From Siniperca chuatsi (Eukaryota > Chordata > Actinopteri > Centrarchiformes > Sinipercidae), in the NCBI RefSeq assembly GCF_020085105.1, contig NC_058063.1, forward strand, positions 8,707,422-8,771,421: a DNA stretch of 64,000 nt, given 5' to 3'. Within the stretch, counting starts at the first letter, position 1. Each line of letters starts with the position of its first letter. The position numbers and the translations under genes were made by a program. This document shows, piece after piece, positions 1 through 59,800 of the stretch. The notes under the pieces were generated by a model, which was not told the DNA's origin, made no database searches, and saw only the letters and a list, made by a program, of their open reading frames with translations.

Positions 1-3000
1 AGTCTGAAGGCATCTGGTACAGGACTGTCAAGCTTACAGATAATTTTATATATCCCTTTCTTCCAGCAGGGGTCGCTGTCTCTCCCAGTCCAAATGGCAG
101 AATAAAACTCCCTCAGAGCCACCTCCGAAACCTCGATAAACCTCTCTGGGACCTGCAGACAGAAATCTGAATGTCAAAAGATAAAATACTTCAAGGTCTA
201 CAGAATTAGGGCTTTAAAAGTCTGGACGTACTTGGAAATGAGCTCAAATTCACATAAAAAAGCCCAAGAGTTGAATGGTTGAAATTGTGCCCCCTGTCAG
301 CTCTACCATAATTCACACAAACTATACCTACAAGCAAAATGCTGTATAAATGCTGTACTAAAATGATCTTATTATAACAAGAACAATTTGTCATTACAAT
401 GAAAATGAAATGAAAAGTTTCATACAGCTACTATAATGAGAAAAAGATCCAGTCAAAGCCTAGAGAAGACATTGTAGTCTGTTGTATAGAACTGTGTGTG
501 TGTGATTGAGAGAAGCCCATTAATATGTATGTAGTTCTACCATTGGTCTGCTTTGTCCACACGGAAAATAATCCTCTGTAGAATACACACAGACACTGTA
601 CATTAATCCAGGACTAGGACGTCTTTCCATCCAGCCTTTTGTGGCCCCTTTAGCTGGTGAATAAGATATAACACTACTTCAGATTCTTTTCTTCGTTACA
701 GCCTCACCCCTTTCTAAAATCTTGTATTCAAAGCCATATTGTGCTCAATAGTTGTGCTCATAAAAGCAGATTCTCCACGCATCTCATTCAAAGCATGAAA
801 TAAAATCAATTACCATATCATTAATAAAATCAACTTGTAAACAAGTCTTTTTCATTTCTCCAGTATAGGCTCTTCTCTTTGACTCAATCTTTTTTTCTCC
901 TTATAATAACACCCTACATAAGTTTATGTAACTTATTGGGTTTATTCATAGTTACTTATCTGTTATCATAAGTTAATGAGTGAAGTTAAAATAAGTCATT
1001 ATAACATAAATCTGTCTTGCTAAAATCGAGAAAAAGACAAGATATTATAATGAGAAAAGGGGTAGGTTAAGATGAGAAACTGAGCAGAAGAACGTGTGTG
1101 TCAATGCAATCCACACATCTACCACTGTAAAATTACATCGTCGCCATTCAGACCAGGGGGATTTCTGCAGAATCACACCATATGTACTCTGTATTCATGG
1201 CCGGTTAGCTCAGTTGGTTAGAGCGTGGTGCTAATAACGCCAAGGTCGCGGGTTCGATCCCCGTACGGGCCACGTTGCTTTTGAGGAAGTACGAGTTGGT
1301 GGAACTCTAATAATACTCATTACTCCGCGATGTATATGTAAATATGCCTGATTGGACTCAAATGCTATTACATTGCACGCAGGGGTCTTAATATTTAGCT
1401 TGAACTTGTTTCATTTCTAAAACGTCATTTACTCATTTGTTATAAAATCCCTTAATTATTGTTACGACAATTTCAACCTCAGTTGGTTAGAGCGTGGTGC
1501 TAATAACGCCAAGGTCGCGGGATCGATCCTCGTACGGGCCACGGTGATTTTGAAACATTCACAAACAGCTTAACATTTCTCAATAATGATTTATTCAGCC
1601 AGAATTGTCCTATAGTCACATAGCAGGCAAAATTGCTTGTTTGTCCACTCACCATGTCAGAACATACCCCAGGAAATACAATATATGTGGCATCTGCGAG
1701 ACAAATGCGATTCCTGCCCCTTCATTTGCACATCGTGTACAACTCATTGTGTAGCAACTCCATTTTTTACACAGTTTGCCAAGAATGGGCTTTGTATATT
1801 ACAGTAGTTGAGAGACATACATATCAAGCAGACATAATTTAACTTAAATTTAACTAACTAATAATGATGCTTTAAGACAAGTGACAACCAAGCCTAGGGA
1901 GAATGAATGAAGGCAGCTTAAGTTTCCATTCAATGAACAGAATAGAAGTGAAGAAAAAAAGCTTTTGTGTATGTATGTGGAAATAAGTCCTCACAGCAGT
2001 TAGTTAAAAACAAAAAATATAAACAAAACAATCCTAAAAATACAATAAATCAGTTATTTCACATGGTGAAAATACAACAGCGCTCCATCAGACAGAGCGC
2101 AAGTCCACATGCATGTCCCTCCCTGTCGAGGCCATGTCATTCTTGTTCTCATGTTTGTGCGCAGAAGATTTGGAGCTAATCGTACTCGAGGTCCCCAATC
2201 CAAAAAAATTATTAAAGCATCCAACATCATCCTTCATACAGTTATATAATTAGCAAGTTGAAAGCTATAACTACAGAGGAAAAAAGACATGCTGCATATT
2301 GACACACTCTCCTTACCTGGTAGACGTTACTTTTGTTGTAGTGCATGTTCAGTATGCGATAAAGCTCTGTATCACGGCCCACTCGCAGCTGACTCTCTCT
2401 GCCCAGACGAGGTGCACCTTCCCTGGGTGACACAGATGGACAAACAGATTTTTATTTAAATTAAATCACTGTAAAATCCATGCTGACTATCCTGAAGCTG
2501 ACATTTATTTGTATTATTTATATTCAGCTAGTATTTATTTTTGACAATTGACCTTCTGGATCTTTTCTGGCATTGTATTATGTCCAGTAAGAATTAAAGT
2601 GCTATTTGTTTGTTTGAACAGTTCTGAGGTTGCACAACTGTGGCAAAATTCTGACCACTCAGACTGAAATATTAATGGACATTACATACACACTTATGTT
2701 GTAAAACAAATCCAATATCTGCCTGGTACTTAAATTGTCTTAAATAGTAGCAAGTACCAAGTGGTAGTGGTAGTAGTGGTGGTAAATCCACACTTAATAA
2801 AATAAATGATTATCAGAAATGCTCTATAATCTCTTTGCCACAAGCATGACTACCTCACAACCAGTCAAAATTTTCGACAATTTATAAAATATATAAGATA
2901 CAATGTAAATTATGAATTGACTGACTGAATTGAATGACTGGCAGGGAGGAAACCATGATGCTTCACACTGTTATGCTGCATAAAACAGGAAAGCCTGGAG

Positions 3001-6000
3001 CATGATACAACAAAGTTTTGTCTTTCTGCAATTTGTAATTTTTTCTTTCTACAAATATGCAGGACAACACATACATCTGATGCATAAATCAGACAGAATG
3101 GCAGCTCCTCTGTGAAAATGCCAACATGCTAGCTCCTATAAAACCCAGTCAAACAATGGAAGTTTTGCAGCAAATGAGTTTAACATGAACCAGTGCCAAC
3201 TCAAACCGACCGGGTGAGAGCCTCGCGGACAGCCTGTCGTGCAAAGCGCTCCATCTGGATGTAGAAGAACTCTCTGAAGTTACTGAACCATTTAATCATC
3301 TGGGAGGTCACACAGCGATTAAACTAGACAGTGGACAGGAAAACAGCAGGACAGGAAGTGAACAGGTGAGGACAGCAAGAGAGGGCTGCTTATTAGATGA
3401 TTTCATTTAGCATTAATAATTATATAAATAAAAACCTGACAGCTCAAAGAAAGAGTAAATGTGTTTTGGTGATTCATAATTTAAAATGTTATTACTCACA
3501 TATTAATATAATAATATATGAGAACAACACACCTTTCTTTGGTTGTGAACCCCAATTTGGATTGTAATTGGTTAAAGAAATAAAAACAACTTTCGGATTG
3601 TGACAGTTTTTGCTGTGTTTGTCGTTTGTAATTTGTTGTTTATAATGATTGTATTTCCAGTAAGTTAACTGTTCAAAATGTTGTACAGTTGCTGTTATTT
3701 CTAATAGTAAAGGTTACTCTTTAACTGTAGAATTTCCTCCCTCAGTATATTTTCATCATAGCTCTTTAATGACATAATTAGAGTGATCCTTTCCATAAAA
3801 TAAAAAAATAAAATGTGGAAACAATCCTTACTGTGGTTAATCGGACAGTAACTGACAGTAACATTACGACTCCCGACTAAAAGCTCATCTGAAACCCAGT
3901 AAATAAGGCCGGTTAGCTCAGTTGGTTAGAGCGTGGTGCTAATAACGCCAAGGTCGCGGGTTCGATCCCCGTACGGGCCACGTTGATTTTGAGCATTGAG
4001 TGTTAGCAGTTTGTGATTTCATAATGTAATAATGACAACACAACTCAAAGGCCACAGAAAGACAGTATACATTAACACCACTGAATCTTTGAAAAACATC
4101 TTCCAAACTATCACTTAATATGAGAGAGCTACCACTGCTGGTGGGAAGTAGAGTTCTGAGATACTTGATTTGAGTATTTAAGTTTTATGCTACTTTTACT
4201 TCATTACATTTCAGAGGGAAATGTACTTTTTTACTCCACTTCATTAGCTAAAGTCACTTGTTACTTTGCAGATGAAGATTTTAAGACTATAATCATATTA
4301 AAAAAACAATGCATTGCAGTAAATGAAACCACTCAACAGTATAGTATATTGTTTAACTGTAAAATATTGTAAAATGAGTATATTTTTGTCATAACTCTTA
4401 AATGACCAAATTGTTGGTCATGATAATGTTAATGTCACTTGTGTAAAAACATGAATATGTCATTATTTTATTGTCAAAAAAACCTGTATCAGTCACGCTC
4501 TATTAAAAATGGCTATAGCCACAGGCCTCCCCTTAACCCTAGCATAGTGAACCAAGACGAATGACTAGCCTTTTGCAATAGTGAAACCATGGCTTTGGAT
4601 TCAATGTTGTTCAGTAAAGGACAAAATCGTGAACTAGCACTGTGATGGGGTACACACACCTTGACATCAGGGAAGTAAGTCTTGAGTGTATTGGAGCTGG
4701 GATAGCGTGCGTAAAAGAACATGAGCTTGGCTTTCTTCAGGTGGCAGGGAGACAAGCCCTCCTGGGTGTATTCATGAGGCCAGTTAAGGAGATACATATG
4801 TCCTTTTACACACACTCATAAACAAACACATATGCCCCTCCCTCATTCCTCCCCCCTTGCTGACAAAAGGATATTCCCCCAGCTGTCAGGTAGAGCTCTC
4901 CTCCGTCCATCCCTCCTCTCATCCCCCCATCTCCCCTCATCCCTCTCTCCCTCTCTCTGCCCCCGTGAGCGTGGCGTGCAAGGGAAGGGTCCAGGTGACC
5001 GAGCAAGGGGAGAGGTGGGAAAGAGGGGTGAGACGAGAACTCCAAGAAAGGGTCGGAGTTCAAATAGTCCTTGCGGGACGGGGTGAGGTGGGGGAGCTGA
5101 GGGTGGTGAAGAGAGCGAGAGAAGAGCTGCTGCATGGAGTAGTGGAGAAGGGGGAGAGAGAGGGGGGGAGGGGGAGGGGGAGGAGGAGGGGGAGGAGGAG
5201 GCGCGGGAAAGGAAGATGAGGAAGAAGAGGAGGAGGATGAGGATGGGTGGAAGGAGGAGGAGGAGGGGTCCTTGGGTTGTGAGGCTGGATGCAAGAGGGG
5301 AGGATGAGAAAGAGGAGGAGGGCGAGATAGAGAAGGGTGATGAAGGGAGATGTTCGGATGAGAGGGATTTAGGTGAGCAGAGAGAGGTGGGCCGAGGAGT
5401 GTGTGGGCTTTTCGTATGTCAGGTGACCTTTGAACGGCCAATGGCATCGTCAGATCTGATGGTTCAGCGCGATGAGGCTGTCCTGGAGGCAGGGCGCTCC
5501 CGTTGCTCATTTTCTGGAGCTGCTTCTCTCTTTCTCCATCCTGCGCCCCTGTCTTTTCCTCCTTACCTCTGCTTTTTTCCTCCACTCTTCCACTCGTTAA
5601 CAGTCCCATCCACACTCCCCTCTCCCTCCCTCCATCGTTTCCTGCGTCAGACGGGAGGAAAGAGATGGCGGCAGGAGGAGAGGAAGGAGTGAAATCTGTC
5701 ATCTCGGTATAAAGGCGGAGAACTCGGTCGATGACTCGTGCCACAGCGCTGCCCAACTCCAGCTTCAGCGCCTGAGCAAACTTCTGCCCTCCCTCCTCGC
5801 CCTCGTCTTCTATCCCTCCATGCCAGTCTCCTCTTACCAGCCCTCCGCAATCCAACCACAACCCCGCTCCCTCCATCACGCCCTCCAAGTGCAACCCTCC
5901 TCCTCTTCCTCTCTCTATCCTCCCTTCTCTGTCTTTTTGCCTCTCTTCTCTCCGTTTGTGGAAGTTGTCAAAGGGGGAAACAGAGAGAAGGGAGAAAGTT

Positions 6001-6703
6001 TCCTTTTCTATCTCTCCCCCATCAGTGTCCTCTTCATCATACAGCCCTTCTGTAATGTCCTCCTCCTCCATCATCCCTACATCTGCTTCTCCTCCATCTC
6101 CTCCTCTGTTTCTGTGCCTCCTTTTCTTCTCCTCCTCTGTCATGTGCTTTTCCCCAAAGGCCCTCCATACTTTCTCCTGCAGGGCCTGCAATCTCTCTCT
6201 TGCGTCCTCCAGCTGTTCCTTCAGCTCCTCCCTCTCTCTTCTCTTCCCCTCCCTCCCTCCCTCGCGCCTCCTGCCTCCCTCCTCTGTCTCTCCATCTCTT
6301 GGTCGGCTCTCCAGCTTCATCCTCTTCACTTGACTCCACTCGGCCGCGAGGGCGGCATCACTGTGCCTCTTCTTAACCCCCAACAAGCTGTCCTCTCCCT
6401 CCATCACTCCTTCTTCTCCTCCTTCCATCCCTTGCTCCACCTGTCCATCCCTCTCTCCTCTGTCTTCCTGGTGTTTGTGTGCGCTCAGGTTTGTGTTGAG
6501 TTGCCCTCCAATCCTCCTGGGGGCTCCACCTGGCTGGAGGAGGTGGTGGATGAGGGGGAAGCCAGGGGGTCTAAAGGCAGGAGGAGGGCGACCTGCACTG
6601 GGCTGAGAATGAACTCCAGGGAGCTCTGTAGACCTGTGAGTGGGAGCGAAAGCGTGTATCTGGGAAGCAGAGTCATCGAAAAGATCTGTGGGGGAATCCA
6701 TCA
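1..6703 (-). CDS. prox3: Prospero homeobox transcription factor, probably Prox3 (partial at the 3' end)
   Basis: Nuclear DNA-binding regulator of the prospero class. Coding exons, read on the minus strand: 6703-4875 (ATG at 6701), 4767-4660, 3323-3211, 2398-2317 and 152-1. Phases agree, giving about 760 visible residues; roughly the last 14 codons lie outside the window. The first exon encodes a disordered N-terminus, a basic stretch ([12 protein letters not shown]), a coiled coil ([18 protein letters not shown]) matching the conserved Prox helix, a second conserved block ([20 protein letters not shown]), then Ser and Pro runs. The remaining exons encode the divergent homeodomain ([42 protein letters not shown]) and the prospero domain ([34 protein letters not shown]). 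An acceptor (CTCTCTCCAG) lies two bases before the ATG, so at least one upstream noncoding exon exists. The first intron is AT-AC, U12-type. The prox3 name is inferred from the linkage to snx15; membership of the family is certain. Confidence 0.95.
1199..1272 (+). tRNA. tRNA-Ile (anticodon AAU)
   Basis: 74-nt cloverleaf with acceptor GGCCGGT pairing to the 3' ACGGGCC, intact A and B boxes, and anticodon loop CTAATAA giving anticodon AAU. TTTT follows within 10 nt as a Pol III terminator. It lies antisense within the last visible intron of the prox gene. Its sequence is identical to the copy at 3907. Confidence 0.97.
1478..1541 (+). pseudogene. 5'-truncated tRNA-Ile relic
   Basis: Matches the tRNA-Ile at 1199 from the D-arm to the discriminator base. 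The first acceptor strand and the start of the A box are replaced by unrelated sequence. The T loop carries a T-to-A change (GGGATCGATCC), and there is a further C-to-T change. The downstream flank, including TTTT, still resembles that of the functional copies. It cannot form an acceptor stem. Confidence 0.85.
3907..3980 (+). tRNA. tRNA-Ile (anticodon AAU), second copy
   Basis: 74-nt tRNA with the same sequence as the copy at 1199, followed by CGTTGATTTTG with a TTTT terminator. The similar 3' flanks (CGTTG.TTTTGA) indicate local duplication that included flanking DNA. It lies antisense within the prox intron between the exons at 4767-4660 and 3323-3211. Confidence 0.97.
4145..4330. repeat. 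Interspersed repeat fragment in prox intron
   Basis: ACTTTTACTTCATTACATTT and CAGAGGGAAATGTACTTTTT, matching the start of the composite repeat at 35720. It lies in the prox intron next to the tRNA-Ile at 3907. Confidence 0.5.
4768..4874 (-). other. U12-type AT-AC intron of the prox gene
   Basis: On the minus strand the intron starts ATATCCTTTT at 4874 and ends in AC at 4768. TCCTTAAC, the consensus minor-spliceosome branch site, lies at 4790-4783, 16 nt before the 3' end. Removing it joins codons in phase 0: ...LTAGG followed by [12 protein letters not shown], which aligns with the MQEGLSPNHLKK segment of Prox1. Without this intron the upstream exon runs into a stop near 4806. Confidence 0.9.
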
Positions 6704-16870: not shown

Positions 16871-19800
16871 CTAAGGGTCCTGTGTATGTGTGTGTGTAGG
16901 TGTGTGAGTGTGTGTGGGCGAGGAATGCCTGTCAACCAACATCTCAGTGTGCTTCAGATACTGGGCTGTCCTTCTCACCACAGACTCCCTGCGTATCGGA
17001 TCTGGATCTCCTGGACAGACAGACAGACACACAGACCGGAAGACGAAGATGATTATTTTCATTATTATTATCCAGTAATGGCATTAGCGCACCTGGTGCT
17101 GCTGCTGTGGATGCATAAAAAATCTTGAATTGTGTGCAGAGGCTGGTGTAATAAACCTATTATCTGAAATAGCTGACTTGACAACAAACAACATGCCTTT
17201 CAGAGTACAGTTCAACTGACTCTAAATGCACAGTTAGCTCCTTTTTCTATCACATTAAGGAAGCAAGAAAAGATTCCTTGGCACAGGTGGGATTCGAACC
17301 CACGCCCCCAAAGAAACTGGAGCCTTAATCCAGCGCCTTAGACTGCTCGGCCACGCTACCACATTACAGCACACTTATCGTTGTTTGACAGCTCATGGGA
17401 GAGGGGGGTTAACATTAACCCAGTCAAGGGTAGATCTGAACAACACAGATACTGAGAAGGCACAAAGTAAGCATACATAACCCATTAGAGGGTTGTCACA
17501 TGTTAGCATAGTAGCAGATGACACACATACTTGTGTGTTAGTCTGGGAAGTTAATTTAGATCACATTTAATGAATGTAATAGTAATAACATTTGTCTAGA
17601 GTAATGACTGCACAATAACTCTTATCAGAATCAGAAATAGTTTATTGATCCGCGAGGGGAAATCTGTAATTCATTACAACTGAGTACTTTGATCCTGTCA
17701 TTTTCAGAAATGAATGAAAGGGATAACTTGCTGAAGAAATTCTTTTGGCAAGTTCTGATGGTTCTAGGTGTTTCAGCTTTATATAATTCTTTACTTTTCT
17801 GTCTTTCAGAGAAAAAAAACACACTGGCAGCGGTGGGATTCGAACCCACGCCCCCGAAGAGACTGGAGCCTAAATCCAGCGCCTTAGACCGCTCGGCCAC
17901 GCTACCATGTCCAAAATGGAATCCAGTCTGAAGTACAGTAAGCATTTCGTCTTGATATCTACACATACTGTTCTGTCTACATCTATTTACCGGTAAGTCA
18001 TCTTTTGTGGCACCTTTTATATCATGTTGTTGCCAATTTAAAAAAAGATGGCCCTCAAAAGCCTCACTGTCAGTTTCATATGTGGTTTCTATTCCGCTGT
18101 CAGCTTCTGAGCTTCCTTCTACAGGTCATGAACAGCATCCGATTCCGCATGCCTAATTTCTTACTTTATCAGACTTGCCTTGCAAGGGCTGAAGAACTGA
18201 AGAAGGTTCAGGTAAAATGCCATACTGAATTGACTGCGTGTTTTGGACTCAGATGCAAGATTGTGAAAAACCAAAAGAGAAAACACAGAGTGTTGCAGTG
18301 GTGTTTCAAAATGTTGTAGGTTTTACCATGTCCCTCCTCCCTCCTTCTTTCTCCCCCCTGGTCCGCCAACCCATCTTCCTCAATCCCTTCATACATCTTC
18401 TCACCCTGTACTCCAGTGATCAGTATATCCACCGCTGTCCTGTATCCACGAATGGCAGAACTGAATTCTCCCTCCCTTTCCCTCTCCATTGCAGCTGTTA
18501 GCTCATTGGCAGCTTGGTTCAAGTAACCAGCGTCGCCTACATCCGTACTGGTTGGCGGCAGTGAGAACAATTCTGAGTGGTCACAGGAGGAATTGGATCC
18601 TTCTGAAACCGAGAAAAAAAGAGGAAGAGAAAATGATTTACTAGTAGAGAAATGAGAATGGTTTTCCAAAAGTTGTTCTCAGTAAGCCAACTGTGTACAA
18701 CATCCAGCTGAAAAGCTTGGCAGCGGTGGGATTCGAACCCACGCCCCCGAAGAGACTGGAGCCTTAATCCAGCGCCTTAGACCGCTCGGCCACGCTACCT
18801 CAAGGTATACAACTGACTACTAGATATAGCTCCAGTCAGAAAGTTCTCTTCTGACCAGCTGGAGAACTTTTATTTCTCACTGTTTCAAAAGCTTGTTATT
18901 TAGTGTCAGCTTAACATAAGTTCATAAAGCCAGTCAGCCTATATAGACCTATTTTCACAAACAGGCTGTAATTAGATTAAGACAGAGATTTGAGTGGACT
19001 AAGAGCAGTGATATTGTTTTCTATGTATCCATTCACATTTATTTTTACCTTGTTTATAGCAGGGATCAAAGACAGCCAAGTCATTATCAGATAGCGGAGG
19101 TGGACCTTCTTCCTTTGGGGATGGGACTTGCTCTTCTGCCACAGAGTCAAACAGTGAATCAAATTCTTCCTGGGACTCTTGTGATTGGTGGTTTCTGGCT
19201 GGGGATGGGTCAGGTGACGGGACTGGAGGTGGAAACGTGGACCAAAAGGTAAAAACAAGATTAATAAGGAGAGAAAACAAAAGTACAGAACTGTGTAAAT
19301 AGTGTTTGACCCCATCGTACCTCTGTCATCCAGCTCTGTATCGCTAAGCTCCTCTTGGTCTTCTCTCAGAGAATCTCCAATCTCGCTGTAAGCCTCAGCC
19401 GCCACCTCCGGTTCTCCCACTTCTAAGCCCACATTGGTGCCCAGGTCTTGGGGTAAGGTGGGTGCCTCCCGCCCCTCCTCCTCCTCTGCGGGTTCACAGT
19501 CTGAGGCCCTCCGCTTGGGGAGGGGGATGAGAGGGGGAGGCAGAGGCCCGGCAGAGGAAACAGGGGTGGGATCCAGAGGCCTTGTGACCTCACCACCCTG
19601 AGCGAGGAAGACATGGTAGATGTAAGGAGAGAGGAAGGTAGGATGGAAGGAGGTGTTGTGGTGTAGTAGAGCAGTGGGTAGAGGCAAAATGAAAAGGAGT
19701 CCAGTAACATTATGACTCTTGGTCTAGCATATGTTTTTGTGTGTGCAGTGTGCATGGCTATTTCATATCTGTTTCACTTCCTGTATGTGTGTATGCGAGT

Positions 19801-23668: not shown

Positions 23669-23740
23669 TAGCAGAGGATGGTTTCGATCCATCGACCTCT
23701 GGGTTATGGGCCCAGCACGCTTCCGCTGCGCCACTCTGCT
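23669..23740 (-). tRNA. Initiator tRNA-Met (CAU)
   Basis: 72-nt initiator tRNA. It has AGCAGAG at the 5' end, the three G-C pairs in the anticodon stem (GGGCCCATAACCC), the A-type T loop (GATCGAAAC) and TTTT immediately downstream. It stands alone between snx15 and slc3a2. Confidence 0.97.
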
Positions 23741-29649: not shown

Positions 29650-32200
29650 ATGAACAAGGACACAGAGATTGACATGAAGGAAGTGGAGCTCAATGTACTG
29701 GACCCTGAGAAGCAGCCCATGACAGGCGACGGCCAGGTTGCAGTCGTAGAGAAAAATGGCAGCGTCAAGCTGAAGGTTCCTGAAGAGGAGGTTACATTCA
29801 CCGGCCTGTCCAAAGAGGAGCTGATGAAGGTTGCTGGCACTCCAGGGTAAGACCTACTAGATAAGATTTGCTATAAACACCTTTTTTTTTTTTAACGCTG
29901 GTCTTGTATTGGTGTGTGGCATAAAACCATTGATCATCTTAACATTTTTCCTCACTCTCATCCTCTGTGTTTTTAGATGGGTGCGAACCCGTTGGGTGCT
30001 TCTTGTCCTGTTTTGGCTAGGCTGGGTAGGCATGCTGGCTGGAGCCATAGTGATCATAGTCCAGGCTCCTCGCTGCAAACCCATCCCTGAGATGAACTGG
30101 TGGAACGAAGGACCTCTGTACCAGATCTCTGACCCTGAAGCTTTCTCTGACGGACTGGCAGGTAGAGTGCCTTAGTGAATATGTAGTTTCAGGGTAAATA
30201 TACCATGTTTTTATTCCTTTTTAAGACTTTTAATGTTAAGGGTGATGCCCTTTCTTGCTGCTGTTTGCATGTTCCTTTTTGCTTATGGTGTCAGCCCTAT
30301 TCCCAAAATAAGGCTTTGAGATTCTTTACAAAGTGGTCTGGTCTTGATGTGGTAAGCCACTCTAATTCACAGGGATAAGTCTTGTGACAAGGTCTTGAGT
30401 TTCCTTAGTTCTAAGTGGCCTATTTCAGCTGGCTAGATACCAAACTGCTGAGTAGGCTGACAACAAGTGACTCAATGTCTAAAGGACATGAAAAGCCTAC
30501 GAGTCATGTCTTTCATATCTCTCCTACTCAAATCTGAGGTTAAGGTTGAGCAACCCAGTAAATGCCACTTAATAAGACAGTCACAATTATCGGCCTTTAT
30601 TTTAGAATTTAGATTTTAACCATATAAGTAATTTTTTAAGAGGCACAAAGGAAGGACAAATTGTCCTGCTGTTCTTACAGTGAATTACTAGGGAGCACTC
30701 GGTTTTCCAACAGGCTTGGGCAGAATTCCAACAACCACACGTGACTTGGTGGTGTTTTCACATAAAGGACCTCCTTGTGCTCAGACTTCACATGGCCAGC
30801 AGAGGGTGTGGAGGGAGCCATTCACATGCTCCTGCCTTGAGTCAATACCTAGCTAAAAGAGCAGCACTTTTTACTTAGCTGTTTCCTAAACCATCAAAAT
30901 GTCTCTCCAGCCTTCTGCCCTTTCTTCCTAACCCTCTGACCCTGCTACCTTTCACACATCAGCTCTCTGTTGTCTTTCCCCAATGTGAAATTCACACTGA
31001 CATGACATTTCATTCTCCCTTCCTGTCCCTCTACTTGTCTCTAGGTGTTGAGGCGAGGTTGGACGACGTAAACCAGTTGAAGGTGAAAGGTCTGGTTCTC
31101 GGCCCTCTTCACACCGTTCAGGCCGACCAGCTGCACACACTAAATCTTGAAGAGATCGACCCGAGCCAGGGAACGAAGGAATCCCTGCTCGCTGTGGTGG
31201 AAAAGGCCCACAAGAAGGGTAGGTCGTCATACAACTGAAATCAGTCATTTGTGTGTAAAAGCTCAGACCAGAATTTTTATGACTCACCGATGTTGGGCTC
31301 ATTCTCTGTTAATAATAAGAGAACAGAATCAACTTTTTGCTAGATTTTGTGGTATTTTGGACTGCTCAAGTTAAGGTGTTGTTTGCTGTTTACTTTTTCT
31401 CTTAGGCATTTCTGTGGTGCTTGACCTAACTCCAAACTACTTGGGACAGGCTCCCTGGTTCAGCGCTAGTGATGCTGATGGTGTGATTGAGAAAGTCAAG
31501 GTAGGGGACACACACACTATGTTTGTGATCCTTTGATCACAGGGTGTGAAAGTGAGACAATTGGGTCTAAGTGTTGTATCGATACAACACTTGCTTCTGT
31601 TGTAGTTAAAGTGCTCATGTTCTCTTCCAGGCTGCAGCGGAGCACTGGCTGAGTTTAGGTGTTGATGGCATCAAGATATCTGACCTCACTGTTGCCTCCA
31701 GCTCTGCTGATTGGTCAATGCTGCAGGATGCCGTCCAGGGCAACCGCACGGAGGACACCAAGAAGAGGTAATTATGGCTGCCATTTTCTGACTTTCTAGA
31801 CAATCTGTGCAGGAAAAGAGTGTTTCATTTGCAAGGCTTTTGGATAAATTTAGCTATTTCCTGCAGATTATAGGGAATGCAGTTTTGAGCACTGTTACGA
31901 TTTTATATGAACAATTTTATTTGAACATTAGGTTGTACAAGAAGCTCAAATTGACATTTTTCTGGCTGTGGAGTTCCAAAAAACGAACGCCTCAAAAGAA
32001 CCAATTTTAAACTTGAAGAATTTTGTAGGGCTGATCTTTCTTGGGAAAGTAATTTTCGAAGCATCAGTGAAATGTCAGTTGACAGGGTTATGTTTCCTGA
32101 GAGAAGGTGGAGATTATAAGCATTCCAGTGCTGCAGGGGACTGTGGGTGGGGGTTGGGGAGAGGCATACACAGGCCACTTCTCTTTCTTTCTTTCTTTCT

Positions 32201-56800: not shown

Positions 56801-59800
56801 TCCTGCTTTCATCTTGTCGGAGTCTTGCGCTCTGTGTCTCGGCTTGGAACACGGTCTGCCCGTCGAGTGCTTGATCCGGGATGTTGATGGAGCAGGTCTC
56901 TGTAAAGATGTGGGCACAACAGTCTCTGGTTCCCATTGCTTGGCCAGCCCATTTCGTCCATGCCGGACATTAGCCAGGAGCAGCCTTAAGTCCAAGCTTG
57001 GCCAGCATGGCTCCTATCCCCGCCTAGCTAATCGTGATCCTGTGAGTGAGTGAGTTTCACCTACAGCTCATCGAGAGGTTTCGCATCTAAAAATGCCCGG
57101 AGAAAACAAAAGCACCACATTTTGTGTAGCTTGGAGTAATAATAGCACAGAAAATGCCAGTGAATTCTCATTTCTTCAACATTACAAGCAACCGATAAGT
57201 TACAAGCTACAGCGACCTGCTAGAATATGAATCTAATATTTTAGTGTACCTATAATGAACTGTATGATGGAGAACTGTTAGATAGACCCTGATAGAAGTT
57301 AGACTCTGAAAACATAAAAATCAGTTAATTGTTTATTATGCTAACTGCGGACATCTTTGTGTGTGTGTGTGTGCGCGTGTGTGTGTGTGCACAGTGGAAA
57401 AGCTGTTGTCCATGTGTAGTTCCAGCTGCGTACCAGGAGGGGGCAGTAACACAGAGCTGGCGCTATACTGTCTGCACTACTGTCAGGGGAACACAATGGT
57501 AAGCAGTGAAGAGGAATATTAATACAGTTTTTTTTTCTTTATTCCTCATTCATTCTTTTACTATGCACTCATGCCATCATTTTCATCATTCCTCCATACA
57601 TCGTGACTTACTCACCTATCATCATTACTCACCTATTCATTCTCTTTGTCATTTCTTTTTCTTTCTTTCTTTTCTTTCTCACTCATTCATATCCAGTTAA
57701 TTCTCTTCAGAATCATTACATGCCTCATCTGTCTGTTCTCTGCATCCTTCATCCCTCTCTCCTGTGCAGGCCACCCTGGAGATGCTGCTGTTCTCACAGC
57801 CCTTGCCAACAGGAGACTACCACTACTCTGGTAACCTTTGACCTCAATCTAACTCATGGGTTTCCTATGCCTGTTGAAAGATCATTCCTAAATTATCACC
57901 CGATAATCAGATAGCTCTTTGGCTTGGTTATGGATATTTAACCTGAGCTGACTCCGCTCTCACCCTGTCATGTTTTTGAGGTGTATTCAAATCAAATCGC
58001 AACTTTGTCAAATTTAACCAGGGGACAGAAATAGGTAAAGTAAAATGAACTAAAATGTGTTGCAGTGAAAGAAGTTTAGTGTTTCTCTACAACAGTCAAC
58101 AGTTGTATGCATGTGCAAATGTGAGTCAGCAAAGGAGTAACCATTTCCACTGTACGTACAATAGTAGCCTTTGTAGAAGCCCAAAAAAAATCGCATGCCA
58201 CCCACCCCACCCCCCTCTCTCTGTCTTTGTCTCTTTGGTGCATTTAATGGTTCTCCACCACCTAACAACAGCTTAACAACATTTAGATGTCTAAAATCCC
58301 TGGCATTTCCCATGACCCCCCCCAGCTATTAAGCATAGGTACATGCAAGTTGCATTGTTAAAGCAGAGTCATTACAATCCACAGTGACAGTGGTATCAGA
58401 CTCATCATCTCCCATTTCTTTCACCAGTTATTGTCGATTTCCTGCAGGACTTTATACGTTTCCCGACAGTGGTTGCATTTCTTGGCATTGCAGCAAGCCG
58501 TGCACTGCAGGATGACCTGTTGGTGTTTGTTTTTGAATTGTTTCTCATGCTTTGCCTCTCACCCTCCTCTCTCTCCCTCTGCAGGTAGTGATTTTTGGAC
58601 AGACAGTGAAAAAAGTCTTTTCAGTGCAGCTCTGGGAACTTATGGAAAAGAATTTTCACTCATACAGAAAATGGTATAACTATTGCTTGTTATTTATGCT
58701 GCATTCTTTTAATGGTTACCTTCTCAGTGCTTTCCTTTTCTAATCTGTCTTTGCACAAGCCTAAAAGTGACATGGACTGTACGTATAACTACACACGTAG
58801 AAATTCTAACTATTTCTGCAGCTATTAAAATGACTGCATGTTGCAACTTGATTCACAAAATTAGCACTCGAAAACTCACTGACTAAATAAAAGGCTGGAG
58901 ATGCCACTTTACAGTATGTTATTGAATGTGTCAGCTTGATATATTATTATTATTATTGATATTTTCTGAAATATGTTGGCTAATATATTTGGAATCAAGC
59001 TGAGGTAGAAAAAGTTACACTGTCAGGTTGATTTTTGAGTGCTAAGTATTCACTATGTGTGTGTTTGTGTGTGTATGTTGCAGGTGAAGACTAAGACCGT
59101 GTGCCAATGTGTTGAATTTTACTACCTGAGCAAGAGGCTCCTGGACAAGCAGAAGAAACAGAAGGAGGAGGAGAACAGAAATGGAGAGATGGAGCAGCAG
59201 AAAAGTGTAAGAAACACCTGAAAGAAGCAGTCGGGAATTTAGTGTTAACATCTTTTTGCCTCTTGTCAAAATGTCCCAGCTGATCCAGGGACTCTGGTAC
59301 CCCGCTGATGTCCCTGATGTTTCTTTTAGTTTGCGTTTTAATATCAGCCTTTAGCGTTAGTGCTCACCCTTTTCCTGTCATTATCTTGTTTCCTGTTGTT
59401 GTTGTCCTGTGGTTTTTTGGCTATTCCCATGATACTCTGTGGGCTCCACTGCGTCATGCATTCTGATCCCTGACAGGTAGGACTATAGAATAGTGTGCTT
59501 GGCGTAGGAAAAAATATGGAGTATTTGTGTAGTCTTGTGTAATGAGTTAAATGCATTAAATGGTTATCTGGTGTGGAATGCAGCTCGACAAATCAATCAC
59601 ACCAAGGTAGCTTACAATTGGTTCTCTTTTCATAGATAACACCCATCTGTCAGCCAGTGGACAGACCGTTTGGACTGGAGGAGGCGGTTCCTGCGCCCTC
59701 ATTGGCCAGCTTCTTCCCCTGCAAGCTGTGTGGCAAGTGAGTAGGACCAGTCATACCAGAGCAAGCTCCAACACAAACTGTCTCTGTGTTTGGCTTTTCA

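Follow-up and report, generated by a model that had tools for sequence, protein, structure and literature searches.

A minor-class AT-AC intron at the start of the homeodomain in a fast-evolving prox gene, most likely prox3, of Siniperca chuatsi

The minor (U12-type) intron of the Prox/prospero genes has already been described in zebrafish, mammals and flies, and its conservation has been in print since 2010. Its closest known form is intron 2 of zebrafish prox1b (chromosome 7), a gene now named prox3 (PMC11128278); human PROX1 is likewise listed, with pros, among the orthologous U12 introns (PMC2831892, Table 2), and both genes are compared here by description. In Drosophila prospero, of the same gene family, an AT-AC U12 intron also lies around the homeodomain, but there a U2 intron is nested within it, giving a protein 29 residues longer (PMC3564746), and a scan of limited scope found no such nested intron in the gene described below. 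Here we analyse a 64,000-nucleotide (nt) stretch of the Siniperca chuatsi genome (NC_058063.1, positions 8,707,422 to 8,771,421; “the window”), whose minus strand carries a prox gene with a 107-nt intron of this kind.

This teleost prox gene, which evolves fast and is most likely prox3, almost certainly keeps the ancestral prospero/Prox U12-type AT-AC intron at the first residues of its homeodomain. The consensus 5′ splice site of such introns is ATATCCTTT, and U12 branch sites resemble TTCCTTAAC and lie some 10-20 nt ahead of the intron's last base. Read on the minus strand, the window intron begins with ATATCCTTTTGT and ends with CCTCATGAATAC, closing on AC; its donor, ATATCCTTTT, has no mismatch to the consensus, and its branch site, CTCCTTAAC, agrees with this pattern, the branch A of TCCTTAAC standing 16 nt ahead of the final base. 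The upstream exon closes in phase 0 (...ELYLTAGG), and excision keeps that phase into the Prox homeodomain, so that both the AC end and the frame-keeping junction are as expected of this class. Scored with approximate splice-site matrices, the donor reaches 15.1 bits for U12 and -12.3 for U2; for introns 2 and 4 of this gene the U2 scores are 9.0 and 11.8, and the U12 scores -14.3 and -19.8. The original prediction, a reading of this DNA made from its letters, had proposed just this intron, with a branch site 16 nt from the 3′ end, an in-frame junction and a product matching Prox; each of these points holds, as does the scoring with U12 matrices that it had suggested as a check, and, as far as DNA signals go, a real U12-type AT-AC signal set is confirmed.

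Chance is a poor source for such a combination. A scan of both strands for an RTATCCTT donor and a TCCTTAAC branch, each with at most one mismatch and 30-3000 nt apart, gave a single pair with no mismatch in the window, that of the prox intron, and a first-order Markov estimate (spacing 40-500 nt) puts the expected number of perfect pairs at 0.018 on the minus and 0.020 on the plus strand.

The same arrangement recurs at other loci of the genome. A protein search of 718.8 Mb in 65 contigs returned ten matches, two apiece at five loci: that of the window (C22), C15, C16a, C16b and C24. Each locus has an exact RTATCCTT donor, in phase 0, at the end of the exon that precedes the domain, and a U12-like branch site 13-16 nt ahead of the following exon, exactly TCCTTAAC in four of the five and GCCTTAAC in C15; the acceptor of C16b is displaced by two codons. 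The introns differ widely in length (C22 107, C15 1875, C16a 3881, C16b 427 and C24 5420 nt). The position at the start of the homeodomain is thus shared by 5/5 loci found in this genome, with fly and mammals known from papers. The comparison of position and class, which the original prediction had suggested for the prox genes of other vertebrates and for prospero, comes out in its favour, and the deep conservation it had drawn from this intron stands, though not as a novelty.

A genome search for U12 small nuclear RNA (snRNA) genes scored 44 candidates and gave one match, C21:16890534-16890687, at 131.1 bits (cut-off 53). Its GTAAGGA region is able to base-pair with each of the five branch sites, at -5.2 to -7.7 kcal/mol. 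From the signals and the shared position we predict splicing by the minor spliceosome: U11 and U12, then U6atac, would recognise ATATCCTTTT and TCCTTAAC and join the two phase-0 exons. Read-through of the intron reaches a stop after 22 codons, ahead of the homeodomain. On retention, unspliced transcripts would supply no DNA-binding domain, and minor splicing would thereby limit the making of active DNA-binding protein; with the stop so placed, the minor spliceosome would act as its gate. Such a role would accord with the general proposal of minor introns as switches limited by U6atac (PMC3728624).

The five exons of the window gene join into 768 stop-free codons, the last exon running out of the window. 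Pfam PF05044 (HPD) matches two of them above its cut-off of 25 (57.1 and 31.9 bits), and the joined domain matches the structures of human PROX1 (2lmd, E 2.4e-70) and fly prospero (1mij, E 1.9e-54); 74/100 domain residues are identical to human PROX1, nine linker residues being excluded from the row. The upstream exon has only one short match among the other copies (C16a, 43 columns, 35%). Since this match fits the 35% identity reported between zebrafish prox1b and Prox1 (PMC2956630), the window gene is most likely a fast-evolving teleost prox copy, probably prox3. Zebrafish prox1b has a further intron in its 5′ untranslated region (PMC2956630), and in the window gene an acceptor-like CTCTCCAG directly precedes the ATG. 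Three coding introns are described for the zebrafish gene (PMC2956630) versus four needed here, one of them within the homeo-prospero domain. This extra, intron-like interruption (788 nt, window 2423-3210, minus strand) has a donor, GTCGGT, that looks weak by eye; it is absent from the four paralogues, each of which has one unbroken exon there, and the adjoining linker is longer in the window gene. Its 16-mers were found nowhere else in the window, and the sole inverted pair near its ends is a 10-base match with one mismatch.

On the basis of that interruption, one could suppose a gene in decay, in which the extra sequence is an insertion and the U12 intron a relic; the weak donor of the 788-nt segment and its absence from four paralogues would fit, as would the branch of the window copy, the longest among the fish copies (0.53). 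A decaying gene is hard to square, however, with a joined frame of 768 codons free of stops, with a domain largely kept at 74/100 residues and with U12 signals that are perfect, and we consider decay unlikely. Nor does the stretch behave as coding sequence, or as an intron spliced solely by the major spliceosome through a cryptic GT-AG pair. GT and AG dinucleotides do occur within and beside it, but a coding read stops after 22 codons, every internal U2 donor scores 3.2 bits or less, and U12 signals stand at the equivalent position in the other four loci, making this reading extremely improbable.

The original prediction had also invoked the twintron of fly prospero, and here only part of the comparison stands: the U12 AT-AC orthology holds (PMC2831892, PMC2956630) and the nested U2 intron does not. 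Both the gene family and the position match the fly twintron, and the 22 codons that remain open on read-through from the donor would leave room for a longer isoform. We enumerated donors of at least 4 bits with the approximate matrix, anywhere between 60 nt upstream of the U12 site and the point where read-through ends, and acceptors from 159 nt before the next exon to 30 nt inside it with a pyrimidine fraction of at least 0.6, for introns of at least 60 nt and under a model that excludes isoforms with an extra small exon. Within this limited enumeration, none of the five prox loci showed an in-frame nested U2 donor/acceptor pair around the U12 intron, and the strongest U2 donor within the 107 nt reaches 3.2 bits. 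A prospero-type twintron in the window gene was rejected on these grounds and is, in our estimation, very improbable. The prospero U2 sites have been dated to early insects, and in the table of 18 human twintron genes PROX1 does not appear (PMC3564746). Because no in-frame nested intron was found at the five loci, the fly twintron and fish prox have in common, within the limits of the scan, the U12 half only.

Several points weigh against our preferred reading, that of a retained ancestral minor intron in a probable prox3. Splicing is predicted here from DNA signals; among the minor-spliceosome snRNA genes, the result covers U12; the prox3 label, which we hold to be likely, is based on exclusion and divergence; and in the domain tree 0/4 inner branches are supported.

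A modest novelty lies in the terminal dinucleotides. U12 signals are found in all five copies; the ends are AT-AC in C22 and C15 and GT-AG in C16a, C16b and C24. C16a and C24 are the prox1 pair, judging by their sequences: their domains are identical at 95/102 residues (C16a versus human PROX1, 93/101) and their upstream exons at 48% (residues 8-422 of the C24 exon). Zebrafish prox1a and prox2 are both on chromosome 17 (PMC2956630), and since C16a and C16b similarly share a contig, C16b is probably prox2. For C15, the upstream exon matches C16a (132 bits, 29%) slightly better than C16b (108 bits, 27%), and the domain is identical at 84/102 residues to C16a versus 78/100 to C16b; only the sequence before the donor (CLPHVKIE...YM.LN) ties C15 to C16b. 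No credible neighbours common to C15 and the window were seen by local tblastn of six window peptides against 14 stretches of 10 kb (best E 1.3).

The pros U12 intron of the fly is AT-AC (PMC2831892, Table 2), and fifteen mammalian U12 orthologues keep the terminal dinucleotides of the fly, a GC-AG case being the sole exception (PMC2831892), so the intron of human, as of other mammalian, PROX1 should be AT-AC as well. With AT-AC in fly pros and, by this argument, in mammals, AT-AC is likely to be the ancestral state of the prospero/Prox U12 intron. On this basis, we think it probable that in this fish the intron exchanged AT-AC ends for GT-AG in the two prox1 copies and the probable prox2, while C22 and C15 kept AT-AC; the change would have occurred once or perhaps twice, since the placement of C15 and the domain tree leave both. 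The intron of the vertebrate Prox gene has been described in print as AT/AC, a wording that does not suit three of these five copies, if it covers the intron ends too. In the literature examined, which excluded subscription papers and supplements, we found no mention of fish prox introns with GT-AG ends.

Elsewhere in the window, ARAGORN (bacterial setting) calls six tRNA genes, and a further Ile-like stretch at about 1480-1545 was seen by eye and not called by the program. The weak MIT-domain match listed below has a likeness that we presume to be to RPS6KC1. In the published account, RPS6KC1 adjoins PROX1 (PMC11128278). Among viral contigs and genome contigs, 10 and 60 stretches matched the pattern for Prox relatives, of which none was confirmed.

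Positions of the prox features, other window features and related loci (window coordinates unless a contig is given)
Feature	Position	Strand	Remarks
U12-type AT-AC intron, 107 nt, phase 0	4768..4874	minus	signals and junction frame
U12 5′ splice site ATATCCTTTT	4865..4874	minus	no mismatch; 15.1 bits with approximate matrix
U12 branch site TCCTTAAC	4783..4790	minus	branch A at 4784; no mismatch; able to base-pair with the U12 snRNA of this genome
First coding exon	4875..6701	minus	ATG at 6701; acceptor-like CTCTCCAG immediately upstream
Exon opening the homeodomain (...DVK)	4660..4767	minus	Pfam HPD 57.1 bits; PDB 2lmd
Second homeodomain exon (...ALTR)	3211..3323	minus	
Prospero-domain exon (EGAPRLG...)	2317..2422	minus	Pfam HPD 31.9 bits
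Last domain exon seen (VPERFIEV...)	1..152	minus	leaves window at position 1
tRNA-Ile(AAT), two	1199-1273; 3907-3981	plus	within prox introns, opposite strand to prox
tRNA-Leu, three, and tRNA-Met, one	17278-17361; 17824-17907; 18718-18799; 23669-23740	minus	ARAGORN
MIT-domain match	18208-18678	minus	28.6 bits, below cut-off 30
SLC3A2 N-terminus	29861-30175	plus	80.6 bits
Myb-like weak match	58362-58679	plus	below cut-off
prox loci	C22 (window); C15:13.23 Mb; C16a, C16:15.31 Mb; C16b, C16:14.68 Mb; C24:7.00 Mb		
GT-AG U12 intron, C16a (prox1 copy)	C16:15304751-15308631	plus	
GT-AG U12 intron, C16b (probable prox2)	C16:14683188-14683614	minus	
GT-AG U12 intron, C24 (prox1 copy)	C24:7008827-7014246	minus	

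The GT-AG ends in fish prox are a small point and mildly new, the rest of the picture being ordinary. If the assignments are true, five copies in the same genome, all of the minor class, would form a natural series on why intron ends change while the class stays; with the class kept and the terminal dinucleotides varying, they offer a gene set for testing selection on minor introns. In a fast-evolving fish prox copy, a minor intron that ranks among the oldest known persists, reduced to 107 nt.
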